58,326 bases of DNA from Lawsonibacter sp. (GTDB lineage Bacteria > Bacillota > Clostridia > Oscillospirales > Oscillospiraceae). Shown piece by piece: positions 16,155 through 43,531 of this stretch (position 1 is the stretch's first letter; each line of letters starts with the position of its first letter). The stretch covers positions 1 through 58,326 of the forward strand of contig JAAWHL010000004.1 in assembly GCA_022795855.1 (NCBI GenBank). The letters are read 5' to 3'. The position numbers and the translations under genes were made by a program. The notes below the pieces were generated by a model. The model was not told the DNA's origin, made no database searches, and was given only the letters and a program-made list of their open reading frames with translations.

Positions 16155-16192
16155 GGGATTACCTCCAATTTGTGACAATTTTCGCGCTCCGG

Positions 16193-16249
16193 GGTCTGTT
16201 TGACGGCGGCGGCCGGTGTGCTGAGCGCTGTTAAACAGGCGCTCAGACC
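16193..16249. repeat. Degenerate end fragment of the dispersed repeat, copy E
   Basis: Contains GCCGGTGTGCTG followed by TGTTAAACAGG and CTC, matching the right end of copy A at 14609-14768 with small changes, and an opposite GGTCTGTTTGAC end. The core is missing. It sits between the exporter gene and the hydrolase gene and can form a hairpin. Confidence 0.5.
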
Positions 16250-16254
16250 GGCTC

Positions 16255-16713
16255 TTATTTTTTGGTCAGCCCGGGCAGGCGGCGTGGAAAGCGGGGAAAG
16301 AGGGCGCGGAACAGCGAGGAGGACAGCATAGCCCCCACCGCCAGCGCCGCAGCCAGCCCGAAGGTCTGGAGCAGGGTGGTAAGAAACAGGTCCTTATACC
16401 CCGCGACGCAGTAGCTCATGGCGTAGTAGATGCCGCCCCCGGGCACCAGGGGCAGCAGGGCCACCAGCAGATAGCAGGTGGCGGGGCACCGGCGCGCCCG
16501 GGCCATCGACTCGGAATAAACGCCGATGGCCACCGCCGCGGCAAAGCCCGCAGTGATGCTCTTATCCCCCAGCAGGTAAATCAGCCAGCCCAGCGCGCCG
16601 CCCAGACAGCAAATCAGCTTGCCTACGCCGTGGATGTTGAACACAAAGGTAAAGCCCAGGCAGGCCAGAAAGGCGCTGGCACAGGGGAGCAGCAGCTCAG
16701 ACAGCAGACGCAT
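16255..16713 (-). CDS. Threonine/serine exporter family, small membrane subunit (YjjB/ThrE_2-like)
   Basis: A 152-residue protein with about four to five transmembrane segments and the motifs FTFVFNI and LLVALLPLVPGGGIYYAM, typical of the short half of split ThrE-type exporters (DUF3815). It works with the larger partner encoded 12 nt upstream. In enterobacteria the YjjP/YjjB pair has been linked to dicarboxylate (succinate) export and ThrE to threonine, so the substrate here is open. Confidence 0.85.
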   Translation of the reverse strand: MRLLSELLLPCASAFLACLGFTFVFNIHGVGKLICCLGGALGWLIYLLGDKSITAGFAAAVAIGVYSESMARARRCPATCYLLVALLPLVPGGGIYYAMSYCVAGYKDLFLTTLLQTFGLAAALAVGAMLSSSLFRALFPRFPRRLPGLTKK

Positions 16714-16725
16714 CTCTCGCCCCTC

Positions 16726-17487
16726 CTACAAAATCTGACCGATGCCCAGGCCCACCGCAGCGCCCAGCGCAATGGCCGCGCCGGTCAGAATGGCCTCCGA
16801 CATACGGCTCAGCCCGGAGACAACATCTCCGGCCATAATCTCCCGCATGGCGTTGGTCAGGGCCACGCCGGGCACCAGCACCATCAGCACGCTGATGGTT
16901 ATGGTGTCCACATCCAGCCCCAGCCCCAGGCGCACCGCCACCAGCGAGGCCAGCGAGGCCACGGCGCTGCAAATCACCGTGCGGAAAAAGGCGTTGGTCC
17001 CCGTCAGCCGGCCGCCGAACAGCAGCGCGGCGCCCACCAGCAGGCCGCACAGAAAGGCGCACAGCGCGTCCCGCAGTCCGCCGCCGAACAGGGGCGCGAA
17101 AAAGGCGGGAGCCAGACCGTAGCCCAGCAGCTGCTGGGCCGGCCGGTAAACCCGCTGATTTTGGGACAGCGCCGCCACCTCCCCCTGGGCCTGGTCCAGG
17201 GGCGGCGTCTGGGTGCACAGGCGGCGGCACAGGCTGTTGCACTGCTCCAGCAGCTCCAGGTCCGTGCCGTGGCCGGGGATGCGGAGCATCCGGGTAATGG
17301 GGTGCCCCTGAGGGGTCACCACGCTGACAATCAGGCAGTTGGGGATGGCGAAGACCTGGGGATCCTCCAGGCCGTAGGCCCGAATCAGGCGGAACACAGA
17401 TTCCTCCACCCGGTAGATCTCCGCTCCGCTCTTCATCAGCTGACAGCCCAGCTCCGCGGCCAGGCCCAGCAGCTTGTCGTAATCCAT
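16726..17487 (-). CDS. Threonine/serine exporter family, large subunit (YjjP/ThrE_1-like)
   Basis: A 253-residue DUF1212 protein. A cytoplasmic N-terminal half (about 1-115: ELGCQLMKSGAEIYRVEES, then an IPNCLIVSV region) is followed by about five transmembrane helices, with MVLVPGVALTNAMREIMAGD as the conserved membrane signature. ATG 17487 has GAGGAAG upstream; a longer start at 17535 lies inside the inferred promoter. It forms an operon with the small subunit and is likely controlled by the palindrome at 17535-17559. Confidence 0.87.
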   Translation of the reverse strand: MDYDKLLGLAAELGCQLMKSGAEIYRVEESVFRLIRAYGLEDPQVFAIPNCLIVSVVTPQGHPITRMLRIPGHGTDLELLEQCNSLCRRLCTQTPPLDQAQGEVAALSQNQRVYRPAQQLLGYGLAPAFFAPLFGGGLRDALCAFLCGLLVGAALLFGGRLTGTNAFFRTVICSAVASLASLVAVRLGLGLDVDTITISVLMVLVPGVALTNAMREIMAGDVVSGLSRMSEAILTGAAIALGAAVGLGIGQIL

Positions 17488-17506
17488 CGAACTCTTCCTC
17501 TCAAAC

Positions 17507-17559
17507 AGGATAGCAGATATCCCCGCTCCTGTCATTACAAAACAGTTAAAGTTTTGTAA
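17507..17559 (-). promoter_or_regulatory. Promoter and palindromic operator of the exporter operon
   Basis: On the minus strand ATGACA (17535-17530) and TATCCT (17512-17507) are 17 nt apart. Immediately upstream (17535-17559) is a perfect inverted repeat, TTACAAAAC-N7-GTTTTGTAA, touching the -35. The geometry suggests a dimeric regulator. There is no U-run, so it is not a good terminator for the MATE gene. Confidence 0.6.
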
Positions 17560-17577
17560 CGATGGGTTACAGCGCGG

Positions 17578-18999
17578 CTACTTCTCCGCCGGCTCCGGGT
17601 GGCGGCCGTCCACCGCCAGATAGGAAGGGCCGCCGCCCTGCATCTTGGCAAAGGCCTTTTTGCGGACCAGCAGGTACATGGTGATGTGAAACAGGGCGGT
17701 GACGGTCCAGGTGATGGGGTAGGAAACAAACAGCGTGGCAGGGGTGGGGTTCAGGGGAAAAACCGTATACACCCACACCAGCCGCAGGGCACAGGATCCC
17801 ACCAGGGAGGCGACCATCGGCACCACCGAGTAGCCCAGCCCCCGCAGAGACCCCACCATTGTGTCCATCACGCCGCACAGCGCGTACAGCCGGCTGATGT
17901 ACCGCATCCGAATCAGCCCCGCCTGGATGATGGCCTCCTGCTCCGGCCCGGCCTGGACATAGATGGACAGCAGCGGGTAGCCGAAGCTGTAGGCCAGGGT
18001 ACCCAGCACCAGCCCGGTCAGGACGGCGTAGCCCTGGCAGTAGAGGGTCACCCGGTCCACCCGGTCGCACCTGCCCGCGCCGTAGTTCTGTCCGGTGAAG
18101 GTCAGGGCGGCCTGATAGAAGGTGTTCATCGCCGCGTATACAAAGCTCTCCACGTTCTGGGCGGCCCCCGAGCCGCCCATCATGGTAGAGCCGAAGGAGT
18201 TGACGGTGGACTGGATGGCCACGTTGGACAGAGAGAACACCACGCCCTGAAAGCCGGCCGGCAGGCCCACCTGCATAATCCGCCGGACCACCACCGGGTC
18301 CAGGCGCAGCTGCCTGAAGTCCAGGTGCAGGGGGCCCTCCTCCCGGACCAGGCAGCGCAGCACCAGCCCGGCGGAGATGTATTGGGAGAGGGCGGTCGCC
18401 GCTCCCACTCCCGCCACCCCCATTCCCAGGGCAATGACAAAGAACAGGTTCATCAGGACGTTGGCCACTCCGGCAGTCAGCAGGTAGTACAAGGGCCGGC
18501 GGGTGTCCCCTTGGGCCCGCAGCACCGCGCTGCCGAAGTTGTAGGCCATGGTGGCCGGCATCCCCAGAAAATAGATGCGCAGGTACAGGGAGCTCAAGCC
18601 GATGACGTCCTCCGGAGACTGCATCCACCTCAGCAGCCGGGGCGCCAGCCCCACCCCCGCAATCATCAGAAACGCGCCGCTGAGCAGCGACAGGAGTACG
18701 GCGGTATGCACCCCCCGGCTGACTGCCTCCGGCTTGCCCGCCCCCATATCCCGGGCCAGGGTCACGTTGGCGCCCACCGACAGGCCGACGAACAGGGAGA
18801 TCAAAAGGTTGATCAGCGCCGTGTTGGAGCTGACCGCCGCCAGCGCCTCCTTTCCCACAAACTTGCCCACCACCACAATGTCCGCCGCGTTGAACAGCAG
18901 CTGCAAAAGGCTGGAGGCCATCAGCGGCAGCGCGAACAGCAGGATTTTTCCTCCCAGTCCGCCGCTGCACATGTCAATCTGATAACGCTGGGTTTTCAT
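17578..18999 (-). CDS. MATE-family multidrug efflux transporter
   Basis: A 473-residue membrane protein with 12 predicted helices and MATE signatures: LLFALPLMASSLLQLLFNAAD in the first helix, GKEALAAVSSN, AQNVESFVYA and GQNYGAG. It is expected to extrude cationic compounds with Na+ or H+. It lies 10 nt after trmO on the same strand, probably in the same transcript. The C-terminus is short and charged. The substrate cannot be told from sequence. Confidence 0.92.
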   Translation of the reverse strand: MKTQRYQIDMCSGGLGGKILLFALPLMASSLLQLLFNAADIVVVGKFVGKEALAAVSSNTALINLLISLFVGLSVGANVTLARDMGAGKPEAVSRGVHTAVLLSLLSGAFLMIAGVGLAPRLLRWMQSPEDVIGLSSLYLRIYFLGMPATMAYNFGSAVLRAQGDTRRPLYYLLTAGVANVLMNLFFVIALGMGVAGVGAATALSQYISAGLVLRCLVREEGPLHLDFRQLRLDPVVVRRIMQVGLPAGFQGVVFSLSNVAIQSTVNSFGSTMMGGSGAAQNVESFVYAAMNTFYQAALTFTGQNYGAGRCDRVDRVTLYCQGYAVLTGLVLGTLAYSFGYPLLSIYVQAGPEQEAIIQAGLIRMRYISRLYALCGVMDTMVGSLRGLGYSVVPMVASLVGSCALRLVWVYTVFPLNPTPATLFVSYPITWTVTALFHITMYLLVRKKAFAKMQGGGPSYLAVDGRHPEPAEK

Positions 19000-31036: not shown

Positions 31037-31603
31037 ATGAGCAAAGACGAGAAAATTATAGAGTTGTTTTTTGCACGGGCGGAAGAGGCAATTGCACACG
31101 CACAGGAGGCGTATGGGGCGTTGTGTCAGTCTGTGGTCAGGCGAATCCTCCCCGACCAGCGGGATGTGGAGGAATGTGTCAACGATATGTACCTGCGCAT
31201 TTGGAACGCAATCCCGCCGGAGCGGCCCAGCTCTTTGTGCGCGTATATGGCCCGGGTCGCCCGGAATCTGGCCCTGGACCGGTACAGCTATAATTCAGCT
31301 TCCCAAAGGAATTCCGCCCTGACCGCGGCCTTTGAAGAGCTGGAGCCCTGGCTGCCGGCGCATGTGGGAGATCCGGATTCCACCGCAGAAAATCTGTATT
31401 TCCGGCACGTACTGAACGATTTCCTGCGTGCACAATCAAGTGAAGCAAGGCGCTTTTTTCTGCGCCGGTATTGGTACGGCGAGACTTGCCGCGAAATTGC
31501 AGAAAGCAGTCAGGTCAGCGAGGCCAAGGTCCGGACCTCGCTGTTCCGTATGCGGGAACGCCTCCGCAGCGCATTGGAAAAGGAGGGCTTTGACTATGAA
31601 TAA
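31037..31603 (+). CDS. ECF-type RNA polymerase sigma factor
   Basis: A 188-residue sigma-70-family protein. Region 2 is at about 20-85 (YGALCQSVVRRILPDQRDVEECVNDMYLRIWNAIP...ARVARNLALDRY), and region 4 at about 125-180 (RFFLRRYWYGETCREIAESSQVSEAKVRTSLFRMRERL, helix-turn-helix). ATG 31037 is preceded by AAAGGAGG. The stop overlaps the start of the membrane partner by 8 nt, the classical sigma/anti-sigma arrangement. Its own promoter looks ECF-like. It may control the envelope operon that follows; that is inference from position. Confidence 0.92.
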   Translation: MSKDEKIIELFFARAEEAIAHAQEAYGALCQSVVRRILPDQRDVEECVNDMYLRIWNAIPPERPSSLCAYMARVARNLALDRYSYNSASQRNSALTAAFEELEPWLPAHVGDPDSTAENLYFRHVLNDFLRAQSSEARRFFLRRYWYGETCREIAESSQVSEAKVRTSLFRMRERLRSALEKEGFDYE

Positions 31604-32579
31604 TTCGGCTTTTCTGTTTGTGATGAAATCTATAGACGATACTCTGCTGGAGGAAGCTCAGCGCCCGGCAATCAAAGTCCGGCCGCGGCTGCAGTTTCTG
31701 GGAATCGCAGGGCTTGCGGCGGCCTGTATCCTTGTGGTGCTCTCCCTGCGCGGTTGGCTTTACACTGGGGAAAAACTGTTTCCGTCCCAAAGTACGCCGG
31801 TGACAGACCCGGCCAGTGAGACGGCGTTTGCAGAAATCCAGCGGCTTGGCTACACCCTGCCGGTCCCCAGCGATGCACAGGACGTCTTCTATGCTCTGTT
31901 AGACAGTGATTTCGGCAGCACACCCATAGCGGAGGTCACCTATAAAAGCGGCGGCCGCTCCTACTCCTGCCGCGCCCTGAAGTCCCAGCAGCCGGAGAAT
32001 ATCTCCGGCCTGTACCAGGAGTGGACCCACAGCCTGGACTGGAAAGCCGGAAGGCTTCAGATGCAGCTGCGCCAGTCGGACACGGACGCCTGGGTCGGCT
32101 GGTACGCGCCGGACGCCGAGGTCCAGTGGTGTCTCTCCGGCGGGGAGGACGCCCTCTCCCTGCTCCATACGGCGCAGCAGCTTCTGGAGACGCTGGGCTA
32201 TGGCGTCACGGCCGCTCCGGAACAGGCGGAGGATATCCTCTATAACGCCTTCGCGCTGGACGACCTCACGGTTGGAGAAACGGAATTTATGCTGGACGGC
32301 GTCCACTACTCCTACCGCATGGCCCAAACCTGGGCAATTGACGAGGATTTTGCCGATATCTCCGGCATGGATGGGAGCTTTCAGCATGAGGCGGAGGTTG
32401 AAATCACCTGGTGCCCGGCCAGGCTGTACTACGATGAAGGCGGCGCCGGCAAGGTTGTCTGGTTTGATGTGGTGCCGGGACTTTTATACAGCCTGAGCAT
32501 GGATCAGGGCGCGTCGGAGGAGGCGCTGTTGGCGATGGCCAATCAACTGTTTGCACCGGCGCAGGGGGATGTAGGCTGA
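31596..32579 (+). CDS. Single-pass membrane protein, probable anti-sigma partner
   Basis: A 327-residue protein. A short cytoplasmic part (1-35: SIDDTLLEEAQRP) is followed by one membrane helix at about 38-55 (FLGIAGLAAACILVVLSL) and a long extracytoplasmic part rich in Trp/Tyr/Asp. That part seems to contain two related halves, each with DAQDVFYALLDSDF- or QAEDILYNAFALDD-like and YSCRAL/YSYRMA-like segments (internal duplication). AGGAGG is 9 nt before the ATG. No zinc anti-sigma motif is visible, so the anti-sigma role rests on gene order and topology. Confidence 0.72.
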   Translation: MNNSAFLFVMKSIDDTLLEEAQRPAIKVRPRLQFLGIAGLAAACILVVLSLRGWLYTGEKLFPSQSTPVTDPASETAFAEIQRLGYTLPVPSDAQDVFYALLDSDFGSTPIAEVTYKSGGRSYSCRALKSQQPENISGLYQEWTHSLDWKAGRLQMQLRQSDTDAWVGWYAPDAEVQWCLSGGEDALSLLHTAQQLLETLGYGVTAAPEQAEDILYNAFALDDLTVGETEFMLDGVHYSYRMAQTWAIDEDFADISGMDGSFQHEAEVEITWCPARLYYDEGGAGKVVWFDVVPGLLYSLSMDQGASEEALLAMANQLFAPAQGDVG

Positions 32580-32733
32580 ACGCAGGCTGTTTCCCGGCAT
32601 TTTTCAGGTTCCCTCCTCTGCCGAGAAGCCTATTGCGCTTAAACCGTGGATAAAAAGTCAAGTATAGCGATATTCCGGAAGGAAACGTGCACCAAAAGTG
32701 ACCGGGCAGCGCTACAACCGGGGGGTATCGAGC

Positions 32734-33429
32734 ATGAACGAGGTGCTCAGGCAGGAGAAAAAGTATTTGCTGACGGCGGCGGACGCCCAGCGCCTTGGCG
32801 CGTATTTGGGCGGCGTTATGCTCCAGGACGAGCACAACGGGCCTCAGGGCTACTCCATCCGGTCGCTGTACTTCGACACCCTCAACGACAAGGACTACTG
32901 GGACAAAATGGACGGCGTGGAGCTGCGGCGGAAAATCCGTCTGCGGGTTTACAGCCCGTCGGCCAGTTTTGGCATGTTGGAAATGAAGCAGAAAGAGGGG
33001 CCCTACCAAAAAAAGCGCTCTCTGCGCCTGGAGCGGGAGGACGCCTGGCAGCTGTGCCGCGGGAACTATGAACCGCTGCTGAACTATCGGGAGCCCTTCG
33101 CCGCCGAGTGTTACGGCCTGATGCACTGCCAATGCTACCGTCCCCGGGCGGTGGTGGAGTACCGGCGCAGGGCCTTCATTGCCAAGGAGAACCGCATCCG
33201 CATCACCCTGGACAGTCAGATTATTGCCACCGAGGCCGCCTGGGACGTATTCGACTCCAATCTGGCCCAATATCCGGTGCTGGACCCCTTTCACGTGGTA
33301 CTGGAGGTCAAGTTCAACGGTTTTCTGCTCAGCTATATCAAGGACCTGGCGGAAGCTGCCAACCGATCTGAGATCTCCCAAAGCAAATACTGCCTGGCCC
33401 GGAGCGCGGGTCTGCGCTTTCAAGCATAG
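32734..33429 (+). CDS. VTC-domain protein (polyphosphate polymerase-like)
   Basis: A 231-residue cytoplasmic tunnel-fold (CYTH/VTC) protein. The characteristic charged strands are present in order: RQEKKYLL (Glu/Lys), SIRSLYFDT, RRKIRLRVY, FGMLEMKQKEG, RAVVEYRRRAF, RIRITLDSQI and VLEVKFNGFL. In yeast Vtc4 the same residues line the tunnel that makes polyphosphate from ATP (established). Bacterial VTC proteins near DUF4956 and CotH genes have no proven product. The start at 32734 has only a G-rich SD. First gene of a tightly spaced operon ending at 41024. Confidence 0.88.
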   Translation: MNEVLRQEKKYLLTAADAQRLGAYLGGVMLQDEHNGPQGYSIRSLYFDTLNDKDYWDKMDGVELRRKIRLRVYSPSASFGMLEMKQKEGPYQKKRSLRLEREDAWQLCRGNYEPLLNYREPFAAECYGLMHCQCYRPRAVVEYRRRAFIAKENRIRITLDSQIIATEAAWDVFDSNLAQYPVLDPFHVVLEVKFNGFLLSYIKDLAEAANRSEISQSKYCLARSAGLRFQA

Positions 33430-33441
33430 GAGTGATATCTC

Positions 33442-34119
33442 ATGAAACAGCAGCTGTTTGAGATGTTCGGCTCATCCAGCGATCTGGCCCCGGAAGTGAT
33501 TGTCACCCGGCTGGCCGCCGCCTCGGTTATCGCCTGCTTTATCTTCCTGTCCTACAGGATTTCTCACCTGGGGAGCATCTACAGCAAAAAGTTCAACGTC
33601 TCTTTAGTGGTGCTGACCGTCATCACCACCACGGTTATGATCGTCATCGGCAACAACCTGGCCATGTCCCTTGGTATGGTGGGCGCGCTGTCCATCGTCC
33701 GGTTCCGCACGGCGATCAAGGATTCCCGGGATACCATGTATATCTTCTGGGCCATTGTGGTGGGTATCTGCTGCGGCGCGGGGGATTATTTCACCGCAGC
33801 GGCGGGCAGCTCCTCCGCGTTTCTCCTGCTGCTGCTGTTCGGCCGGGTGAAAAACGACAGCCGGGTCCTGCTGATTATCCGCACCGCCCGGATAAACGAG
33901 CCTCGGGTGGAGGCGGCCATCTTTCAGTACTTTGCCCGGAGGGCAAACCTTCGGGTAAAGAACACCACAGAGGCCAGCGTAGAATTTATCTATGAGCTGA
34001 ACAAAAAGCTGCTGGACAAAAAAAGAGGCGGTGAAAACAGCATTACCGATGAAATCTACAGCATCGGCAACATCGACTATTTCAATATTGTGGCCCAAAA
34101 CGACGACATCAGCAGCTGA
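33442..34119 (+). CDS. DUF4956 membrane protein
   Basis: A 225-residue protein. Helices lie at about 25-42, 52-75, 80-90 and 100-130 (VVLTVITTTVMIVIG, MSLGMVGALSIVRFRTAIKD, FWAIVVGICCGAGDY, SAFLLLLLFGR), followed by a cytoplasmic domain of about 90 residues with an alpha/beta look (VLLIIRTARINEP...VEFIYELNKKLL). The GALSIVRFRT motif is the DUF4956 signature. This family almost always neighbours a VTC gene, as here (12 nt apart), so the two likely form a complex at the membrane. Function unknown. Confidence 0.88.
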   Translation: MKQQLFEMFGSSSDLAPEVIVTRLAAASVIACFIFLSYRISHLGSIYSKKFNVSLVVLTVITTTVMIVIGNNLAMSLGMVGALSIVRFRTAIKDSRDTMYIFWAIVVGICCGAGDYFTAAAGSSSAFLLLLLFGRVKNDSRVLLIIRTARINEPRVEAAIFQYFARRANLRVKNTTEASVEFIYELNKKLLDKKRGGENSITDEIYSIGNIDYFNIVAQNDDISS

Positions 34120-34137
34120 TGCCCTGAGGACGAAACG

Positions 34138-35616
34138 ATGAAATACAAATTGATGGGGCTGGCCGGGACGGTGCTGATTCTGCTTGCCGCCGCCGCAGCC
34201 AGCGCCTTGGAACCCGCTGTGGAGCCAAGCACCCGGGTCCACCAGTACCTCTCCGCCCGGCAGGACGCCGGCTGTGACTGCGGCGGAGACGAGCTGTGCT
34301 CCCACCTGCCCCTCGTCATCATCGACACCGGAGGGCAGACCATCCCGGGCCAGCTGACCAATACCTTCGACCGTTTTGCCCAGCATATTTACACCATGGC
34401 GGAAGACGGCGGCCCTACCATCCAGGCAGAGGTCAAGGTAATTGACAATCGTGACCGGAACAATCACCCCGGCGACCAGCCGGCCATCACCACCGCCAGC
34501 GAGCTGCGGGTTCGGGGGCATTCCTCCCGCTTTTTTGAAAAGGCGCCCTATCTGCTGAAATTCCTGGACGAAAACGGAGTACATCAGGACCTCCCTGTTA
34601 TGGGGATGGGGGCTCATCACGAGTGGGCGCTCCACAGCCCCATGATTGACAAGACGCTGGTCCGCAATTATATGTGGTACAACATCTCCGGCGAAATTAT
34701 GGGCTATGCCCCAAACTGCCGGTTCTGCGAGGTGATTGTGGACGGGGATTACCGGGGCGTCTATCTGATGGTGGAGACCATCACGGATGGAGAGGACTGC
34801 CGGCTGAACCTGAGCCTGCGTGTCAAGGGTTCAGAGGGCACAGGGTATCTGCTCCGGCTGGACCGGCCCAGCGAGGCGGAAGCGGAGTCCATCCGGGATA
34901 TCTATTCCTACGCCGAGCGGGTGAACCGGGTGCTGCAGGATTTTGCCATCCGTTACCCGGGAAAATCCAAGCTGACGGAGGAAATCAAGCAGGATATCGA
35001 GCTGGACTACGCGGCCTTTGAAAAGTCCCTTTACTCCTATGACTATAACACCGGAGAGTACGGCTACTGGAACTGGATTGACGTGGACAGCTTTGTGGAT
35101 TTTTATCTCATTGAGGAGTTTACCCAGAACTATGACATGGGGGCCTACTCCACCTACATCTACAAGGAACCCGGAGCGCCCTACCGGCTGTGCGTATGGG
35201 ATTTTGACAACTGCCTGGGCAACTCCCGGCACACCGTTGATCTGCCGGATCGGTACCTGCTCAACGAGCGCTCCTGGTACGTGATGCTGTTTAAGAATGC
35301 GGCCTTCGTCCGGCGGGTTCTGGAGCGGTATGAGGCGCTGCGGGAGAGCTGGCTTGACGAGGCGTATCTGCTGGACTACATCGACCAGGCCCTGGAATAC
35401 CTGGGCCCTGCGGCGGAGCGGAACAACCGGCGCTGGGCGGACAAAATCGCCGGCTGGGAGGGCCTGGGCGAGGACAAGGAAAACCCCCGCAGTTTTGAGG
35501 AGGCGGTGGAGATGATGAAAACCCGCATCATCCAGCGGGGCCGCTGGATGGACGAGACCATCCACAGCCTTCAGCAGTACTGCCATCCCTCCCGGAATAA
35601 GAAGTATGACCACTGA
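34138..35616 (+). CDS. CotH-family kinase-like protein, exported
   Basis: A 492-residue protein with an N-terminal signal peptide or anchor (about 1-22). The CotH domain shows RVRGHSSRFFEKAPYLLKF (Lys region), MIDKTLVRNYMWYNI, YRGVYLMVE and the metal-binding WDFDNCLGN. CotH of Bacillus is an atypical kinase that phosphorylates spore-coat proteins (established); the exported position here suggests phosphorylation of a surface protein or polymer. Four Cys/His-containing residues near the N-terminus (CDCGGDELCSH) may bind metal or form disulfides. Eighteen bases after the DUF4956 gene. Confidence 0.88.
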   Translation: MKYKLMGLAGTVLILLAAAAASALEPAVEPSTRVHQYLSARQDAGCDCGGDELCSHLPLVIIDTGGQTIPGQLTNTFDRFAQHIYTMAEDGGPTIQAEVKVIDNRDRNNHPGDQPAITTASELRVRGHSSRFFEKAPYLLKFLDENGVHQDLPVMGMGAHHEWALHSPMIDKTLVRNYMWYNISGEIMGYAPNCRFCEVIVDGDYRGVYLMVETITDGEDCRLNLSLRVKGSEGTGYLLRLDRPSEAEAESIRDIYSYAERVNRVLQDFAIRYPGKSKLTEEIKQDIELDYAAFEKSLYSYDYNTGEYGYWNWIDVDSFVDFYLIEEFTQNYDMGAYSTYIYKEPGAPYRLCVWDFDNCLGNSRHTVDLPDRYLLNERSWYVMLFKNAAFVRRVLERYEALRESWLDEAYLLDYIDQALEYLGPAAERNNRRWADKIAGWEGLGEDKENPRSFEEAVEMMKTRIIQRGRWMDETIHSLQQYCHPSRNKKYDH

Positions 35617-35639
35617 GGAGGCCAGTTGGCTATCTGCCT

Positions 35640-37925
35640 ATGAAAACCTTTATTTTAACAGCCTGCGCCGCGGTTCTGCTGTTTTTCGCGGCCTATACGG
35701 CCTACTACCGCTTTGGCGTCTATTTTGACCTGCGTCCGGACGAGCCGGTGACCACATTTATGAAAACCGAGGGGAAGTCCATTCTCATGGAGCGGGACGG
35801 AGCATACCTCCCCTTTGAGATACGGGGCCTCAACATGGGCGTGGGCATCCCCGGAGAGTGGGCCACCAGCTACGCCATCGACAAAAAGACTTATCTGCGC
35901 TGGTTCCGGCAGATTCAGGAGCTGGGGGCAAACACCGTCCGCATATACACCATCCTCCAGGACGATTTTTACAACGCCTTTTACGAGTACAACCGGGAGC
36001 AGGAGGAAAACGGCCGGGAACCCCTCTGGCTAATCCACGGAGTCTGGGTCAACGACTATATGCAGAACTCCCACCGGGAGGCCTATGACGGCGATCTGCT
36101 GGAAACCCTCCTGCGGGACTGCAAAACGACGGTGGATATCCTCCACGGACAGAAGGTCCTGTCCCTGGGACGGGGTCTGGGCTCCGGGAGCTACCGGAAG
36201 GACGTCTCCCCCTGGGTGATTGGCTATATCATCGGTGTGGAGTGGGAAAACACCCTGGTGGTCTACACCAACCAGGCCGACGGAGCGCTGAACTCCTATG
36301 AGGGGGACTACCTCTGCACAACGGAGGACGCCACCCCTTTTGAGGCATTCCTGTGCCGGGCTGGGGACGGCATAATCGCCTACGAGAGCACCCGCTATAA
36401 GCAGCAGCGGCTGGTGGCCTTCTCCAACTGGCCGACCACCGACCCCTTCTCCTACCCTGTGGCCGTGGCCTACGGCCGGGAGAAATACGCCTGCGTCAAT
36501 GTGGAGCACATCACAAGCAAGGAGACCTTCCAGTCGGGGATGTTCGCCTCCTACCATGTCTACCCCTATTTCCCGGATTATCTGGAAATTCTGCGCCGGG
36601 GCGGGGAGCTGGGAGACGAGGAAATCACCCGCCGTCTGGGCGCCACCATCCGGGCTACCCTGGAGTACCGCCAGTCCAAGCTGAACGCCCCAAGCATCCT
36701 GGATTATCTGCGGGAGCCCGACTACCGCGACTATCAGAACCGGTACAACACCTATATCGCCTATCTGCGGGCCCTGAACCGATTCCACTCCCTGCCTGTG
36801 GTCATTTCGGAGTACGGCGTTTCTACCGGCAGGGGGATGGCCCAGGAGGACGCAAACACCGGGCGCAACCAGGGCCACATGACCGAGCAGGAGCAGGGCC
36901 AGGCCGCCATCGACTGCTACCGGGACATTATGGACGCCGGCTGTTCCGGCAGCTGCCTGTTCACCTGGCAGGACGAGTGGTTTAAGCGGACCTGGAACAC
37001 CATGCACGCCGTTGACCTGGACAAGACGCCCTACTGGAGCGACTACCAGACCAACGAGCAGTACTTCGGCCTGCTGTCCTTTGACCCGGGGGCGGAGGAG
37101 AGCGTATGCTGTGTGGACGGCAGCCTGTCCGAGTGGACCCGGGCGGACCGGGTAATTGAACACAACGGCATGGAGCTGTCCATGAAGTACGACGAAAAGT
37201 TCCTCTACTTTCTGGTGAAAAAGCCGGGGTTCGACCCGGCGGAGGATACCCTGTATCTCCCCATCGACACCACCCCCAAAACCGGCAGCACCCTCTGCCA
37301 AAATCCCGCTGCGGCCTTTGAGCGGGCCTGCGATTTTCTGGTAATCATCCAAGGGCGGGAAAACAGCCGGGTGCTGGTCCAGCAGCGGTACGAGGCCCTC
37401 CGCTCCACCTACGCCTATGACTATTACACCGAGGACCCCTACATCACTCCGCCTGCAAAGGACACCCCGGTCTTTACGGACATCTATCTTCCCCTAATCC
37501 AGCGGGATTTTCTGCGGGACCCGGACCAGGCGGAACCCAGCGGCACCAAGTTTAATACCGGCGCTCTGCGCTACGGCTGCGCCAACCCGGAGTCGCCGGA
37601 CTTCGACTCCCTGTCCGACTTCATCTTTTCCGGAGACTATGTGGAAATCCGGATCCCCTGGCAGCTTTTGAACTTCTCCAATCCCTCCGAGATGATGATC
37701 CACGACGACTACTACGAGTGCTACGGGGTGGAAAATCTCCATATCGACGCGCTGTATGCGGGCGTATGCTGGGACGGGGAGTCCCAATGCCGCATCCCCA
37801 TGGCGGCTGTGCCGCTGAGGGGCTGGGGAAAGAAACCCACCGCCCACGAGCGGCTGAAGCAGTCGTACTATATTTTACAGGACTATTGGAGACAGTTGGA
37901 CCAGGCTGAACAAATCGGGGGGTGA
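35640..37925 (+). CDS. Membrane-anchored glycoside hydrolase-like protein with C-terminal CBM-like domain
   Basis: A 761-residue protein anchored by a helix at about 3-22. Residues about 55-480 look like a TIM-barrel glycosidase of the GH2/GH5 clan: GANTVRIYTI, an acid/base candidate Glu in GYIIGVEWEN, and a nucleophile candidate Glu in VVISEYGVSTGRG, then FTWQDEWFKRTW. From about 490 on there is a beta-rich domain (VDGSLSEW..., KYDEKFLYFLVKK, YVEIRIPWQLLNFSNPS) resembling CBM9/DOMON carbohydrate binding. It probably trims or transfers the glycan made by the GT2 enzyme encoded downstream. The exact family is not certain. Confidence 0.8.
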   Translation: MKTFILTACAAVLLFFAAYTAYYRFGVYFDLRPDEPVTTFMKTEGKSILMERDGAYLPFEIRGLNMGVGIPGEWATSYAIDKKTYLRWFRQIQELGANTVRIYTILQDDFYNAFYEYNREQEENGREPLWLIHGVWVNDYMQNSHREAYDGDLLETLLRDCKTTVDILHGQKVLSLGRGLGSGSYRKDVSPWVIGYIIGVEWENTLVVYTNQADGALNSYEGDYLCTTEDATPFEAFLCRAGDGIIAYESTRYKQQRLVAFSNWPTTDPFSYPVAVAYGREKYACVNVEHITSKETFQSGMFASYHVYPYFPDYLEILRRGGELGDEEITRRLGATIRATLEYRQSKLNAPSILDYLREPDYRDYQNRYNTYIAYLRALNRFHSLPVVISEYGVSTGRGMAQEDANTGRNQGHMTEQEQGQAAIDCYRDIMDAGCSGSCLFTWQDEWFKRTWNTMHAVDLDKTPYWSDYQTNEQYFGLLSFDPGAEESVCCVDGSLSEWTRADRVIEHNGMELSMKYDEKFLYFLVKKPGFDPAEDTLYLPIDTTPKTGSTLCQNPAAAFERACDFLVIIQGRENSRVLVQQRYEALRSTYAYDYYTEDPYITPPAKDTPVFTDIYLPLIQRDFLRDPDQAEPSGTKFNTGALRYGCANPESPDFDSLSDFIFSGDYVEIRIPWQLLNFSNPSEMMIHDDYYECYGVENLHIDALYAGVCWDGESQCRIPMAAVPLRGWGKKPTAHERLKQSYYILQDYWRQLDQAEQIGG

Positions 37926-37931
37926 CCTGCC

Positions 37932-39044
37932 TTGGGAAGTGAGGCGCTCTTATACGGCTATACCGCAGTGTGCGTGAGTATGCTGATTTTTAATCTGCTC
38001 TGCTACCTCTCGCTCAACCGAAAGGGCCGCCGGATGGAGCGGGTGAGCAAACGACTCCAGTCCCAAGTAGACCGCCAGCTGGCACGGCTGCGGTGGGGCG
38101 GAACGGTGGAGCACCGTCATTTGCTCTACTTGGAGCGCAAGCTGTCCCGCGTGGCCAACCTGACCGCCTTTGACCGGATGCTGAGCAGGCGCCGGCAGTC
38201 CGATGGGGAAAACGCCCCGGAGCTGATGGAATACGAACAGAGTATCCGGCCGGTCATCCTCCATCTGGCCGTGGTCTACCGGGGGAAGGAGGACCTGCAA
38301 GCGGCCTACTTTGCCTGGTTCCTGGCCAAGCATCAGATGAACCGGCACATGGAGATGAACGCGGTACAGGACATTCTGGTGGACTATATGAATCAGGACA
38401 GCCTGTACTGCCGGGTCAACGCCTTCCAGGCATTGTGCAGGATGGGCAGTCCCCAGTGCGTGGCCGATGCAGTGTCCGTCCTGGACCGGAACCAGAATTT
38501 TTTCCACAGCAAGCTGCTCACCGACAGCCTGCTGTCCTTCACCGGCAGCAAGCGGGCCCTCACTGCCCTGCTGCTGGAGCGGTTCGACGGTTTTTTCACC
38601 CAGACCAGGCTGTCCATCCTCAACTACATCCGCTTCTACTCCGGGGACTACTGCGAATGGGTGCTGCCGCTGATGAACAATCCGGAAGAGGACAAGGAGC
38701 TGCGGCTGTCGGCCATCCGATATTTCGGGCGCTATGCCTATCCCCCCGCCAAACCGGCCCTGCTGGCCTTTGCCGCCGACGGCGACCCGCTATACTGGGA
38801 GTATGCAGCGGTCAGCGTCTCCGCATTGGCCGCCTATGACGGGACGGACACCGCAGATGTGCTGATAGGGGCGATTTGCAGCCCCAACTGGTATGTGCGC
38901 TCCAACGCGGCGGCCAGCCTGACCGCCCAGGGACTGAACGGCGGCAGTCTGGCGGCAGCGGCAGGAGGCGACCAATACGCGCAGGAGATGATACACTACC
39001 AGCTTCAGCTCCGGCAGGCCGGAGAGGAGGGCGCGGCGGTATGA
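37932..39044 (+). CDS. HEAT-repeat protein with N-terminal membrane anchor
   Basis: A 370-residue protein. One helix at about 8-28 (LLYGYTAVCVSMLIFNLLCYL) anchors a cytoplasmic, mostly helical part. From about 135 repeated helix pairs of HEAT type can be seen (SLYCRVNAFQALCRMG, KELRLSAIRYFGRYAYP, PLYWEYAAVSVSALAAYD, NWYVRSNAAASLTAQG). The start is TTG 37932, 7 nt from a GGGGGGTGA site. It may be a scaffold for the synthase encoded next, whose start overlaps its stop by 4 nt (ATGA). Confidence 0.8.
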   Translation: MGSEALLYGYTAVCVSMLIFNLLCYLSLNRKGRRMERVSKRLQSQVDRQLARLRWGGTVEHRHLLYLERKLSRVANLTAFDRMLSRRRQSDGENAPELMEYEQSIRPVILHLAVVYRGKEDLQAAYFAWFLAKHQMNRHMEMNAVQDILVDYMNQDSLYCRVNAFQALCRMGSPQCVADAVSVLDRNQNFFHSKLLTDSLLSFTGSKRALTALLLERFDGFFTQTRLSILNYIRFYSGDYCEWVLPLMNNPEEDKELRLSAIRYFGRYAYPPAKPALLAFAADGDPLYWEYAAVSVSALAAYDGTDTADVLIGAICSPNWYVRSNAAASLTAQGLNGGSLAAAAGGDQYAQEMIHYQLQLRQAGEEGAAV

Positions 39045-40462
39045 CGCAGGAGATCCTCCAGCCCTTTTTAAGCGCCGTAGGCCTCTTTTACGTCCTGTAT
39101 ATGATGGGCTACGCCACCTTCCTTTTCCTATCGGTGACTGTGGGCTCCGCCACTCTCTACGGCTCCAAGCGGCGCAGCCAGCTGAAAAACGAACTGGAGG
39201 GCGGGCACTATGTGCCGGTGACCGTCGTGGTGCCGGCTCACAACGAGAGTGTGACGATCGAGTCCTCCGTCCGCTCCCTGACTATGCTGGACTACCATTC
39301 CTATGAGATTATTGTGGTGGACGACGGCTCCTCTGACAGCACCAGCCAGATTCTGGTGGACGCCTTTCAGATGGTCCGTGTGGACCGGCCCATCCGGCTG
39401 CAGCTGCACTGCCAGCCGGCGGAGGCGGTCTATGAGGCCCGGAACAGCCGGGTACCCATCACCCTGATTCGGAAGCGCAACGGCGGCAAGTCGGACGCCC
39501 TGAACATGGGGATCAACGCCTCCCGCTATCCCTACTTCTTATGTATGGACGCCGACTCCGTCCTCCAGCGGGACTCGCTGGAGAAAATCGTCCGCCCGGT
39601 GCTGGAGGACGATCGTGTGGTGGCAGTAGGCGGCTCCGTCCGCCCCTGCAACGGCACGGAGATTCGGGACGGAGTAGTAATGAACTACCGGATGCCCGGA
39701 AAGCTGCTGCCCTGTATGCAGGTGCTGGAGTATGACCGCTCCTTCCTGGCTGCCCGCATCCTCTTTGAGCAGTTCAACGGCAACATCATTATCTCCGGGG
39801 CCTTCGGCCTGTTCAAAAAGAGCACTGTCATTGATGCCGGGGGATACGATGCCACCACCGTGGGAGAGGACATGGAGCTGGTCATGCGCCTGCATGTCTT
39901 CTGCCGGGAGCACGCCATCCCCTACCGGGTGCGCTACGCCACCGACGCCATCTGCTGGACCCAGGCCCCGGAGAAGCTGGGCGACCTGTGCAAGCAGCGG
40001 CGGCGCTGGCACATCGGGCTCTATCAGAGCATGATGCGGCACCGAAATATTCTGTTCGACCTGAAATACGGCATGGTGGGCTTTATTTCCTGCCTGTACT
40101 TTCTAATCTATGAACTGTTTTCCCCTTACATTGAGGTGTTCGGTGTGCTGGTGACCGCCCTGGCCTGGGCGATGGATTTTTTGAACGTCCCTTTTATGCT
40201 GCTGTACATAGGCGTCTACGTGCTGTACACCTCCATCCTGTCGCTGACCGCCTTCTTCGCCCGGATTCACACCATTGACCTGAAGCTGTCCCTGGGCGAT
40301 GTGTGCAAAGCCATCGGGCTGTGCATGGCAGAGGTGTCCTGCCTGCGGTTCGTCCTTGCCTGGGTACGGGTGACCGCCTTGGGCCGCGGGCGGGGTAAAA
40401 AGGCCGTATGGGGGCAGATTGAGCGCAAGCAGATCAATTTTAACCGGGAAACTCAACAATAA
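39041..40462 (+). CDS. Processive family 2 glycosyltransferase (polysaccharide synthase)
   Basis: A 473-residue integral membrane enzyme. One N-terminal helix (about 10-32), a cytoplasmic GT-A domain, then about four C-terminal helices. Catalytic motifs: VVPAHNE, DDGSSDS, FLCMDADSV (DxD), GEDMEL (base) and QRRRWHIG (the QxxRW motif of processive synthases such as BcsA, IcaA and NodC). It should build and export a sugar homopolymer or heteropolymer from UDP-sugars. No PilZ domain is seen. ATG 39041 overlaps the HEAT gene stop and has a GGAGAGGAGG site. Confidence 0.92.
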   Translation: MTQEILQPFLSAVGLFYVLYMMGYATFLFLSVTVGSATLYGSKRRSQLKNELEGGHYVPVTVVVPAHNESVTIESSVRSLTMLDYHSYEIIVVDDGSSDSTSQILVDAFQMVRVDRPIRLQLHCQPAEAVYEARNSRVPITLIRKRNGGKSDALNMGINASRYPYFLCMDADSVLQRDSLEKIVRPVLEDDRVVAVGGSVRPCNGTEIRDGVVMNYRMPGKLLPCMQVLEYDRSFLAARILFEQFNGNIIISGAFGLFKKSTVIDAGGYDATTVGEDMELVMRLHVFCREHAIPYRVRYATDAICWTQAPEKLGDLCKQRRRWHIGLYQSMMRHRNILFDLKYGMVGFISCLYFLIYELFSPYIEVFGVLVTALAWAMDFLNVPFMLLYIGVYVLYTSILSLTAFFARIHTIDLKLSLGDVCKAIGLCMAEVSCLRFVLAWVRVTALGRGRGKKAVWGQIERKQINFNRETQQ

Positions 40463-40481
40463 GAGAGAGGATGCGGATATT

Positions 40482-41024
40482 ATGCGGATGGACGAGCTGA
40501 AGCGGGGGCTTTGGGGCTATAAAAAGGACAGCGTTTACCACTACATTGTGTCCATAGAGGAGAAGGCTTCCGCCCGGCTGGCGGAGAAGGATGCCAAGCT
40601 GGAAAAGATGGGGGTGGAAACCAAGCGGCAGATCAGTGAACTGGAGGCGGCAATAAAAGCCCTGCGGGAGGAAAATGCCACTCTGCGGGAAAACCAGACT
40701 ACGGTGTTTTCCACCATGCTGGAGGCACAGAAATACGCCGAACAGCTCCGAGCGGACAGCGACCGCCAGATGCAGCAGTTCCAGCGCCAGCTTGCCGCCG
40801 CTGTCCAGCAAAAAAACCAGCAGCTGGCGAGCTACCAGGAACAAATCCGTCAGCTCCGGACCATGATCCGAGAGATTTTGAAAGACTTCGACGGCAGCCT
40901 GGAGGACGCAGGACGCACCTTGGCCAATCTCCCCGCGCAGGCCCCCATTACCGTGCTGGACCCGGACCTGAACGGGACGGCTCAGAGTGAGGGCAAAGCG
41001 TGGAAAAAGATATCGTTTACATAG
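40482..41024 (+). CDS. DivIVA-like coiled-coil protein
   Basis: A 180-residue protein. The N-terminus (MDELKRGLWGYKKDSVYHYI) resembles the membrane-binding DivIVA/GpsB start, and residues about 25-145 form an unbroken heptad-rich coiled coil; the C-terminus is Pro/Ala-rich. DivIVA proteins mark poles and septa, so this one may localise the synthase complex. It lies 19 nt after the GT2 gene with a GAGAGAGG site and is the last gene of the operon. Confidence 0.75.
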   Translation: MRMDELKRGLWGYKKDSVYHYIVSIEEKASARLAEKDAKLEKMGVETKRQISELEAAIKALREENATLRENQTTVFSTMLEAQKYAEQLRADSDRQMQQFQRQLAAAVQQKNQQLASYQEQIRQLRTMIREILKDFDGSLEDAGRTLANLPAQAPITVLDPDLNGTAQSEGKAWKKISFT

Positions 41025-41096
41025 CGGAAGGTCCTGGCTGTCAGCCAGTGATAATAGCAGCTGTCGGGGTATCACCTTGAAGGCCGCTTTCCCAGG

Positions 41097-41370
41097 ATGC
41101 GCTGGTTTTTGAGGCGTTCACAAGCCAAATCCCTTTCCCGGAACGGGATCAGCAAACAAGCAGCGGCGTACCAGGAAGCAATCCAGGATATCCCACCAGA
41201 ACAGATCGCCTATGCGGATGAAAGCGGTATAGATACATATCTATATCAGGGATACGGGTATGCACCGCAGGGCCGGCAGGTGTTTGGACAAATCCGCGGC
41301 CGAAAGTATCAGTCTCTGTACAGGCCGCTCCGGTTTACCTGCCGGGAGGGTGCTTTCGGGTTGAAATGCG
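41097..41370 (+). pseudogene. IS630-family transposase remnant
   Basis: The reading contains AAYQEAIQDIPPEQIAYADESGIDTYLY followed by GYAPQGRQVFGQIRGRKYQSL, the classic IS630 transposase segment around the second catalytic Asp (normally IDETGID). It lacks the N-terminal helix-turn-helix and everything after RGRKYQ..., where similarity stops. No terminal TA duplication was found. It marks the end of the envelope operon; the open frame continues only by chance into the kinase gene on the other strand. Confidence 0.8.
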
Positions 41371-41379
41371 TTCTGGATG

Positions 41380-42648
41380 TCATGCAATGTTCAGCAGCAC
41401 ATTCAGTGAGAAAACTTGTCCCGTTTTCTCGGTCAGCACCGCGCCGCGATACTTCTCCGCCGCCGATTTGATATTGGAAAGTCCGGTTCCCGCCGGGGGC
41501 AGGGGTTCGCCGGAGCAGGCATTCTCAAACGTCAGCAGATAGAAATCCCCCTGCCGCTTTCCGGCGATTCGGATAAACCGCGCCCCCGGAGCGGAGCGGC
41601 AGGCGGCAATGGCGTTGTCCAGGGCGTTCGCGAAAATCACGCACAGGTCAAAATCGTCGATTTCCCAGGACCTGGGCAGGCACAGGGAGACCTCCGCCGC
41701 AATTTCCCCGGCCAGCCCCAGCTTCTCCCCCAGCAGGATGTCCACCACAGGGTTGCCCGTCTGATAGGGAAAGGACAGCGCCTCCGAGGCCGCCTCCAGC
41801 TTCCGCAGGTACGCTCTGCACTGGTCCAGCTCCCCGCCGCCCAGCAGGCCGTCCAGTACGGACAGGTGATTTTTAATGTCGTGGCGAAAGGCCCGGGTCT
41901 GTTCATAGCGCGCCCGCGCCTCGGTGATGTATACCTTCTGGGCCCGGGCCGCCTGGGCCAGGGACGAAAGCTGCGCCTGGGCCTGAAACCCCTGGCAGAG
42001 ATGGCGGTAGGCGTACAGGGTACACAGCAGCGCGGCCAGCCCCATCCCCTGTAAAAGCAGCAGTGCGCTGTGCTTTCCGGCCTCCTCCAGCGACAGGGAG
42101 GGGGCGAAAAAGCTGTAGGCGCTGTGGAGAATATACAGCTCTGCGGCAAAGAAAAACAGCCCCGGAAGCAGCAGCAGGCCCAGATACGGCGTCCGGCGGT
42201 CCTCCGCCAGGGACAGGAGCTTCAGCACAGCGGCATAACAGCCGGCGCACAGCAGAAAAAACACCGCCATCGCCGCCGCAAGCAGCAGGTACAGCAGGGG
42301 ATTTCCGAGATAGCGCGGGAACACCGCCGCCTCCACCGAATTGATGACGCCGAAGGAGAGCTGTGAGATATAGAACGCCAGAACTGCGGCCAGCCAGGAC
42401 ACCGGCCGCCGGTTCCCCAGCGCAAGGCGGCACACGCCGTACAGCGCCAGAACGCCCAGGCCCACCGACAGTATCCCGTTCAGGGAAAGCCGGGCGGAGA
42501 GTGACGCGGCCGCGCCAAGGAGGCACAGGTACGCGGCAAAGCACCCTAGCGGGGGCTTTTTTCCGGTCAGGCGGCCCGCAAAGCCGATGTGCATCACGCT
42601 CTGTCCCACAAGGCAAAGCCCGTCCATACACAGGCTGAAGTAATCCAT
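41380..42648 (-). CDS. GHKL-domain sensor histidine kinase (AgrC-like)
   Basis: A 422-residue membrane kinase. Six to seven helices fill about residues 1-215, followed by a coiled-coil linker (QAQAQLSSLAQAARAQKVYITEARARYEQT). The H-box FRHDIKNHLSVLDGLL gives the phospho-His, and the HATPase part has CVIFANALDNAIAAC (N-box) and GTGLSNIKSAAEKY (G-box). This is the AgrC/ComD/VirS type, which often senses peptides. It starts 2 nt after the LytTR regulator gene. No agrB/agrD peptide genes are next to it, so the signal is unknown. Confidence 0.9.
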   Translation of the reverse strand: MDYFSLCMDGLCLVGQSVMHIGFAGRLTGKKPPLGCFAAYLCLLGAAASLSARLSLNGILSVGLGVLALYGVCRLALGNRRPVSWLAAVLAFYISQLSFGVINSVEAAVFPRYLGNPLLYLLLAAAMAVFFLLCAGCYAAVLKLLSLAEDRRTPYLGLLLLPGLFFFAAELYILHSAYSFFAPSLSLEEAGKHSALLLLQGMGLAALLCTLYAYRHLCQGFQAQAQLSSLAQAARAQKVYITEARARYEQTRAFRHDIKNHLSVLDGLLGGGELDQCRAYLRKLEAASEALSFPYQTGNPVVDILLGEKLGLAGEIAAEVSLCLPRSWEIDDFDLCVIFANALDNAIAACRSAPGARFIRIAGKRQGDFYLLTFENACSGEPLPPAGTGLSNIKSAAEKYRGAVLTEKTGQVFSLNVLLNIA

Positions 42649-42649
42649 A

Positions 42650-43366
42650 TCAAACCTCCCTCTCCTTCATGCAGCGCAGCAGGGCCTGAATCAGGTCCCG
42701 CTCCCGCAGCCGGGAAACGGGGACTGCGCCCCCCTGAGACAGCACGGCCTGGCCGTCCCGGCACCCCCGCACGCAGTCAAGATTAACCAGATAGCTCCTG
42801 TGGCATTTGAAAAAACGGCGGTCCAGGCGGCGCTCCAGGTCCTCCAGCCTGCCGTAATAGTCGATGACCGCTCCGTCGCTTTTATGGAGATAGATTTTCC
42901 GTCCCAGCACCTCGCAGTACACAATTTCAGACAGCGCAATGACCTCGCATGCGCCTCCCTGCTGCACCACAAGCGTCTTCGCGGTCCGCTCCTCCAGCCG
43001 TTTCAGCGTCCTGTCCATCGTCTGCCGGAACCGGACGCGGTCCAGCGGCTTGACCAGATAGTCGCAGGCCTCCACCTCAAAGGCGTCAAACACCCGCTCC
43101 TTCAGAACCGTCACAAAAATCAGCAGGCCGCGCTCCCCTCTCCGGCGCAGCAGCCTGGCGGTCTCCATTCCGTCCGGCGCCTCCATCTGGATGTCCAGAA
43201 AAATCACATCAAAGCCGCCGCTCTCCAGCAGAGCGCGTCCGCTGGAAAAGCGGCTGACACTGTACTGGCCGGGCCGGTTCTCCTCCATATAGCCTGACAG
43301 CTGCTCTGAAAGCTCTTGCACCATAAGCGGCTCGTCGTCACAGACTGCAAATTTTATCCTGCCCAT
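42650..43366 (-). CDS. LytTR-family response regulator
   Basis: A 238-residue regulator. The receiver domain (about 1-125) has acidic pocket CDDEP, phospho-acceptor Asp in VIFLDIQMEAPDG (about 58) and Lys in YLVKPLD. The LytTR DNA-binding domain (about 140-235) shows IVYCEVLGRKIYLH and FFKCHRSYLVNLDCVRG. It pairs with the GHKL kinase encoded 1-2 nt downstream. ATG 43366 has AAGGAGG 6 nt upstream. Targets are unknown; LytTR pairs often control peptides, bacteriocins or cell-wall functions. Confidence 0.93.
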   Translation of the reverse strand: MGRIKFAVCDDEPLMVQELSEQLSGYMEENRPGQYSVSRFSSGRALLESGGFDVIFLDIQMEAPDGMETARLLRRRGERGLLIFVTVLKERVFDAFEVEACDYLVKPLDRVRFRQTMDRTLKRLEERTAKTLVVQQGGACEVIALSEIVYCEVLGRKIYLHKSDGAVIDYYGRLEDLERRLDRRFFKCHRSYLVNLDCVRGCRDGQAVLSQGGAVPVSRLRERDLIQALLRCMKEREV

Positions 43367-43531
43367 CCCGCGCCTCCTTCTCACTGTACCGCCGGCAGAA
43401 AACCGGTTCCTCGGAATCCCTCCGGCGGGGAACAGTATACCGCAAAGCGCCCCGCCGCACAAGCCCATCCGGCAAAGTGCGCGGCGGCTCCCGCTGCGGA
43501 AAACGGCCGTCAGGAAAGCGGCACAGATTTT

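Follow-up and report, generated by a model that had tools for sequence, protein, structure and literature searches.

The window analysed here, a stretch of 58,326 nucleotides (positions 1 to 58,326 of contig JAAWHL010000004.1) from the Lawsonibacter sp. assembly GCA_022795855.1, carries a block of six genes encoding a VTC-domain protein, a DUF4956 membrane protein, a CotH kinase-fold protein, a glycosidase-like protein, a HEAT-repeat protein and a family 2 glycosyltransferase (GT2). All six genes are found on one strand and in the same order at 79 of 97 distinct loci, and owing to this recurrence the block order cannot be ascribed to chance. By association, the assignment of the block to an exopolysaccharide system is well supported. 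The reading preferred here combines a synthase-dependent exopolysaccharide system with a module for phosphate transfer, and its probability is estimated at about 0.5; that phosphate is passed on to the polymer is a reasonable assumption but unproven. A first-pass annotation of this DNA had proposed a conserved multi-gene surface-polymer system, and this part of its interpretation is borne out by the genes standing together, rather than scattered, in relatives.

Relatives were collected with the glycosidase-like protein as probe, which picks close relatives, so that the counts describe the near family of the block. A contig scan confirmed at least 521 relatives, of which the best 80 were kept; the 97 distinct loci include the window locus and were obtained after removal of 5 duplicate contigs. 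Contig ends truncate 14 of the 18 incomplete loci. The true exceptions are L039, which is decayed, L047, which is devoid of the VTC-DUF4956-CotH trio, L053, which has the glycosidase alone, and L073, in which a short CotH is encoded and VTC and DUF4956 were not found upstream. Within the same family, the glycosidase is present in 22 of 300 genomes, the Lawsonibacter genome included, and in none of the 5 other listed genomes of the same genus. The six genes occur in order at 15 of the 21 other loci of the family, the VTC gene of L050 being cut by a contig end; among the remaining loci, three are cut by contig ends and three are the exceptions L039, L047, and L053. According to record titles, the hosts comprise Oscillospiraceae, Lachnospiraceae, organisms with christensenella-type names, Holdemania, Paenibacillus, and Eggerthellaceae, many of them represented by metagenome assemblies. 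The same six-gene order is also found on a plasmid of Planococcus maritimus (L234) with a glycosidase of about 28% identity, and this, together with the variety of hosts, makes a spread of the block by horizontal transfer likely. On this plasmid, a Qat anti-phage gene is located a few genes from the block (17332-18058). Between the six proteins, pairwise distances show correlations of r 0.56-0.91 (permutation maximum 0.28), the highest value being that of HEAT and GT2 (0.91). For the two outside proteins, CotH and the glycosidase, the highest correlation is the one with each other (r 0.82); the value for CotH and VTC is 0.59.

In the window, nine frames are open on the + strand, and the observation of nine adjacent genes is confirmed. 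The seven genes from VTC to a DivIVA-like gene are tightly packed, as the first-pass annotation had described, with intergenic spacing of -4 to 23 nt. The HEAT and GT2 genes overlap by 4 nt, and their median spacing across loci is likewise -4 nt.

The polymer module consists of the genes for the glycosidase-like protein, the HEAT protein, and GT2. The first of these (35640-37925, + strand) encodes a predicted membrane-anchored TIM-barrel protein of 761 amino acids with a beta-rich tail; the full protein matches no Pfam family at E <=0.01. The nearest solved fold is that of LaGH157 (9g4n), a member of glycoside hydrolase family GH157, with an aligned nucleophile. As this aligned nucleophile Glu is kept at 89 of the 97 loci, trimming of a polymer by the glycosidase is plausible. 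Four glycosidases that lack this residue (L049-L052) additionally have an Asp at the position of E201. A tail resembling a carbohydrate-binding module, which the first-pass annotation had described, was not confirmed, as a search with residues 481-761 by themselves gave no Pfam match. The nature of the polymer as a beta-1,3-glucan is hinted at solely by the GH157 fold match and is not claimed. The HEAT protein (37932-39044, + strand; 370 amino acids, TTG start) matches HEAT_2 with 54.5 bits (cut-off 27.7) and has a hydrophobic segment at residues 6-24 followed by basic residues. It has one N-terminal transmembrane segment, the repeats probably lying in the cytosol, and is read as a partner of GT2. 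GT2 itself (39041-40462, + strand; 473 amino acids) matches Glycos_transf_2 with 92.6 bits (cut-off 23.3) and contains a DxD motif (DAD at 170), a GED motif, and the QRRRW motif at 319. DxD and QRRRW mark processive GT2 synthases, and the presence of both agrees with the first-pass annotation. The protein matches many synthases, and its best NCBIfam match is the poly-GlcNAc synthase family PgaC_IcaA (TIGR03937), although the score of 146.9 bits is far under the family cut-off of 422.3. It is predicted to be a processive-type, PgaC-like synthase. Among the Pfam and NCBIfam matches of the nine adjacent genes' proteins, there is no Pel-named family.

The trio upstream of the polymer module starts with a polyphosphate-polymerase-like VTC-domain protein of 231 amino acids without a transmembrane segment (32734-33429, + strand), which matches Pfam VTC with 141.3 bits (curated cut-off 23) and whose profile matches yeast Vtc4 (3g3q, E 3.1e-5). 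The residues R6, K10, R69, R71, K85, R145, and R156 are invariant in 23 sequences and lie opposite like residues of Vtc4; they are candidate tunnel residues. E191, K193, and K218 are also invariant in these sequences and are located beyond the end of the Vtc4 alignment. Thus, the residues that can be aligned with the yeast protein are kept, the C-terminal third being outside the alignment. Neither PPK1 nor PPK2 is matched in the window genome, which leaves the two VTC genes as the sole candidates for a polyphosphate polymerase found there. The second VTC gene belongs to another VTC-DUF4956-CotH set on contig C47 (G000:C47:29792-32663; loci L208 and L002), which is encoded without polymer genes. 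The DUF4956 protein of the block (33442-34119, + strand; 225 amino acids; Pfam DUF4956 52.5 bits, cut-off 30.6) has no credible match in the PDB by sequence. In a predicted model with a mean pLDDT of 74.6, it appears to consist of an MgtC-like transmembrane part and an ACT-like C-terminal domain, and the top Foldseek match of this model is the C-terminal domain of MgtC with a weak E value of 2.7e-3.

The CotH protein (34138-35616, + strand; 492 amino acids; Pfam CotH 171.2 bits, cut-off 23.8) has an N-terminal hydrophobic, signal-like segment at residues 5-23, and its profile matches CotH of Bacillus cereus (5jd9, E 1.3e-6). The residues E213, D333, and D355 are conserved across the four groups of CotH proteins compared, for which 31 of the 92 CotH proteins of the system were sampled. 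One of these groups is formed by short CotH proteins of less than 430 amino acids, which we take to be of the spore-coat type. Position 357 was considered as a signature of the phosphate donor. It is N in 29 of the 31 sampled system proteins and in 31 of 42 other VTC-linked CotH proteins, D or E in 9 of 10 short ones, and D (five) or N (five) in 10 long ones encoded away from VTC; as the window protein has D, no conclusion is drawn from this position. At seven loci (L087, L104, L114, L120, L121, L124, and L129), the CotH gene is preceded by an additional open reading frame of about 445-563 codons, which sits after the DUF4956 gene at the six of them that have VTC and DUF4956 on the contig.

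Both modules also occur separately. In the fetched stretches, the polymer module is found without the trio in L047, on pRadio2 of Deinococcus radiophilus and on a megaplasmid of Paenibacillus cellulosilyticus, and the trio without the polymer module is far commoner. Among 398 genomes of the phylum, VTC is encoded in 64, CotH over the cut-off in 55 (56 at E 0.001), and both in 50; for these counts, split fragments were counted as one, and matches under the cut-off in G684 (VTC) and G474 (CotH) as well as the fragment G543:C23 were dropped. DUF4956 adjoins VTC in 71 of 76 contexts according to the filter applied; visual inspection adds L186 and L208. A co-directional VTC gene is found no more than 4 kb from 43 of 74 CotH genes, and from none of the 10 that encode short CotH proteins. 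Besides the window, the full system is detected by profiles in only 1 of the 76 VTC contexts. Scanning of 10 neighbours for which the CotH profile was silent yielded six Cthe_2159 proteins, three CotH proteins, and one LRR/LTD protein. The VTC-DUF4956 pairs located beside Cthe_2159 carbohydrate-binding proteins (L134, L137, L141, L145, L160, and L192) represent a second type of partner. The neighbours of the trio were scanned in three of the 76 contexts. In L187 and L205, the trio is accompanied by GT2, DHHW, and weak bactofilin matches, and in L197 by MBOAT and AlgX-type genes. Scores below the cut-off were obtained for bactofilin in both former loci, for AlgX in L205, and for MBOAT in L187. 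These neighbours look like genes for polysaccharide synthesis and acylation. Gene order, folds, retained catalytic-type residues, and the swapping of modules can be read from the sequences.

The gene list of the block as such has been published before, in NELoc-2 of Clostridium perfringens (PMC2879425) and, for VTC, DUF4956, and CotH, as an accessory of Pel (PMC7112168). According to the published table, NELoc-2 begins with genes for a sigma factor, a cell-wall protein of 348 amino acids, and a VTC protein of 232 amino acids, followed by a membrane protein of 226 amino acids called tubulin/FtsZ, a resolvase, a second VTC protein (230) and a membrane protein (222), and ends with CotH (497), a hypothetical protein (685), a HEAT protein (377), and a glycosyltransferase (466) (Lepp 2010, PMC2879425). 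This matches the window block in gene order and in approximate lengths (231, 225, 492, 761, 370, and 473 amino acids), with the homology resting on the table and on equating the protein called tubulin/FtsZ with DUF4956. In contrast to the window block with its one VTC-membrane pair and no resolvase, the pair is doubled around a resolvase in NELoc-2; furthermore, its sigma factor is called SgiI, and EAL and DivIVA genes are not among the entries of the table. No NELoc-2 sequence is among the fetched loci, and no C. perfringens title appears in the best 80 of the at least 521 relatives. Chitin turnover and plasmid segregation were proposed as functions of NELoc-2 by its authors (PMC2879425). The locus is listed again in a 2018 and a 2024 paper, and in a 2016 RNA-seq study, transcripts of its first VTC gene and of the next gene fall in vivo; the portions of the NELoc-2 literature available contain no functional test. 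In Gram-positive Pel clusters, genes for CotH, a polyphosphate polymerase, DUF4956, and DUF4832 adjoin the Pel genes (Whitfield 2020, PMC7112168). There, the trio is likewise contiguous with an operon for a secreted polysaccharide (PMC7112168; PMC12345266), and the cluster of Streptococcus intermedius also encodes an active glycoside hydrolase (PMC12345266). The polymer genes differ, being pelDEADAFG in the Pel clusters and GT2, HEAT, and glycosidase genes in the window block. Deletion mutants of S. intermedius lacking the DUF4956-like gene or CotH showed >50% less aggregation in one medium, and Pel increased in the former and decreased in the latter (PMC12345266); these effects speak in favour of the system proposed here. 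According to the same 2025 paper, no example of the three-gene arrangement was found beyond Pel (PMC12345266); contrary to this, the present data show it in other contexts. Searches of the literature for a CotH kinase, a glycosyltransferase, a HEAT repeat, and an operon together found no report, and titles and abstract beginnings held nothing pertinent on polyphosphate as a donor for polysaccharides. New are the breadth of the block, its structure of two modules, an EAL-domain partner, the GH157-nearest glycosidase, and the position of the trio beside other polysaccharide operons.

The genes flanking the six-gene core differ in their conservation. In the window, an extracytoplasmic function (ECF) sigma factor gene (31037-31603, + strand; sigma70-ECF 72 bits, cut-off 42.9; Sigma70_r2 over the Pfam cut-off) overlaps by 8 nt with the gene of a single-pass membrane partner (31596-32579, + strand), which matches no Pfam family at E <=0.01, and a gap of 154 nt separates this pair from VTC. 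The pair is present in 2 of the 79 full loci, the window locus and L054. The DivIVA-like coiled coil (40482-41024, + strand) scores 21.1 bits, below the Pfam cut-off of 28, and is an optional member found in 30 of the 79 full loci, always within 300 nt of GT2. Both had been regarded as parts of the system in the first-pass annotation, and the counts rule them out as core components. Missed by that annotation was an EAL-domain gene, usually of about 600-640 codons, that is located downstream of GT2 or DivIVA, in the same direction, at 59 of the 79 full loci; the spacing is <=300 nt in 55 loci, 343 nt in one, and 1.7-2.1 kb in three, and three weak, distant upstream matches are left out of the count. 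Four of the 20 full loci outside this count (L063, L072, L094, and L132) end at or just past GT2. Scanning of eight open reading frames at this place revealed GGDEF and EAL domains in six, three of these with a weak SBP_bac_3-like N-terminus, and a GH2 protein (L085) and a metallophosphatase (L113) in the other two; in the latter locus, from Holdemania, the metallophosphatase gene occupies the EAL-gene place at 14857-16722. According to a simple pattern, a GGDEF-type motif is present in 2 of 65 such downstream proteins. Conservation is seen for the EAL core (EaLsRW, N, lDDfg, Kldk, aeGvE), presumably the catalytic residues, and in the four EAL proteins examined a single strong hydrophobic segment is located near residues 133-156. 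The partner is predicted to be a sensor of the cyclic di-GMP (c-di-GMP) phosphodiesterase type.

No GGDEF or EAL gene was found in the window operon, which contains at most a tentative remnant of about nine codons from the start of the EAL gene (41000-41030, + strand), reading VEKDIVYIA.. next to, for example, MEKIIIYIAGNP.. in relatives. A like remnant is present in L054, the nearest relative of the window locus. Among the full loci, the ECF pair is confined to these two with a remnant, so that an exchange of the regulator may have taken place. The window genome retains two GGDEF matches and one weak EAL match. The 3' end of the block looks broken both in the window (41030-41471) and in L054 (downstream of 15375); the frame at 41097-41471 appears transposase-like and has no Pfam match, and a relaxase-looking frame was seen by eye in L054. 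Just past the block, a GHKL sensor kinase and a LytTR response regulator are encoded on the opposite strand (41380-43468).

For the exopolysaccharide system, we infer every chemical step as well as the sugar, the phosphate acceptor, the transport direction, and control through c-di-GMP. GT2 and its HEAT membrane partner would polymerize a cytosolic nucleotide sugar and extrude the chain, which would be cut or shaped by the glycosidase anchored outside. On the cytosolic side, VTC would use ATP to make polyphosphate at DUF4956, its partner in the membrane. Outside the cell, phosphate would be transferred by the secreted kinase CotH, most likely onto the polymer or a polymer-bound protein. In most relatives, the output would be set by the membrane sensor with the EAL domain through breakdown of c-di-GMP, the gene having been lost in the window lineage. 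That the machine makes, phosphorylates, and trims a glycan, as the first-pass annotation put it, goes further than the present data, which show no phosphate on a glycan. Several observations weigh against the proposed system. Horizontal transfer and shared descent also inflate the distance correlations, the nucleophile Glu is absent from 8 of the 97 glycosidases (L033, L045, L046, and L048-L052), which are possibly non-catalytic members, and the window itself lacks the EAL gene, on which the case for regulation partly rests. Moreover, 35 of 77 VTC genes have no CotH gene within 4 kb, 31 of 74 CotH genes stand without VTC, and the VTC-DUF4956 pair also occurs without a kinase neighbour, Cthe_2159 accounting for 6 of the 10 neighbours scanned. 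In S. intermedius, the trio is dispensable for Pel production, and the available text states no effect for loss of the VTC gene (PMC12345266).

A more specific version, in which VTC-DUF4956 exports polyphosphate or its phosphate and CotH uses this instead of ATP on an extracellular polysaccharide, rests on the adjacency of the genes and on the fact that no extracellular source of ATP is known; the authors of the Bacillus subtilis CotH study call this source an unanswered question (PMC7821199). Together with the idea that several unrelated polysaccharide synthases have acquired such a polyphosphate relay as a plug-in, this version is considered quite unlikely. Within an exopolysaccharide system, CotH could also phosphorylate proteins such as a carrier, the glycosidase, or a matrix protein, with VTC-DUF4956 serving a separate task. 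This is somewhat unlikely. In its favour, the CotH proteins studied phosphorylate spore-coat proteins with ATP (PMC7821199), E213, D333, and D355 are identical in VTC-linked and short CotH proteins, and the CotH distances are closer to those of the glycosidase than to those of VTC; yet VTC, DUF4956, and CotH stay adjacent beside differing polysaccharide genes, which fits a common task.

A regulatory role of VTC-DUF4956, with DUF4956 sensing phosphate, magnesium, or energy and gating synthesis while VTC serves phosphate homeostasis, is unlikely. It would agree with the MgtC-like signals of DUF4956, with the rise of Pel upon loss of the DUF4956-like gene (PMC12345266), and with the open reading frames of about 225 and about 410 codons beside many VTC genes, which resemble a response regulator and a sensor kinase in size only, but a purely internal regulator leaves the adjacency to CotH or Cthe_2159 unexplained. 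The replacement of CotH by Cthe_2159-type proteins beside VTC-DUF4956 in 6 of the 10 cases tested could also mean that exported polyphosphate joins the matrix, held by polysaccharide and cations, with CotH priming or anchoring it; this is very unlikely, since there is no direct evidence for it and the conserved kinase residues of CotH are left without a clear job. Finally, a nine-gene machine under the control of its own ECF sigma factor and positioned by DivIVA, the version of the first-pass annotation, has adjacency and common direction of the genes in the window in its favour, and NELoc-2 likewise opens with a sigma factor gene and the 348-amino-acid cell-wall protein (PMC2879425, Table 4). 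Given the rarity of the ECF pair (2 of 79), the patchy presence of DivIVA (30 of 79), and the 154-nt gap before VTC, it is regarded as extremely unlikely.

For NELoc-2, so far a disease-associated marker with unrelated functional guesses, the present comparison provides a likely function in surface polysaccharide formation. The block is common in gut bacteria with no pathogen in the record titles, which argues against a virulence trait as such. For the extracytosolic CotH kinase, the portable VTC-DUF4956-CotH module offers a concrete idea of the phosphate source, and, if true, this would amount to phosphorylation of extracellular glycans powered by a polyphosphate relay.

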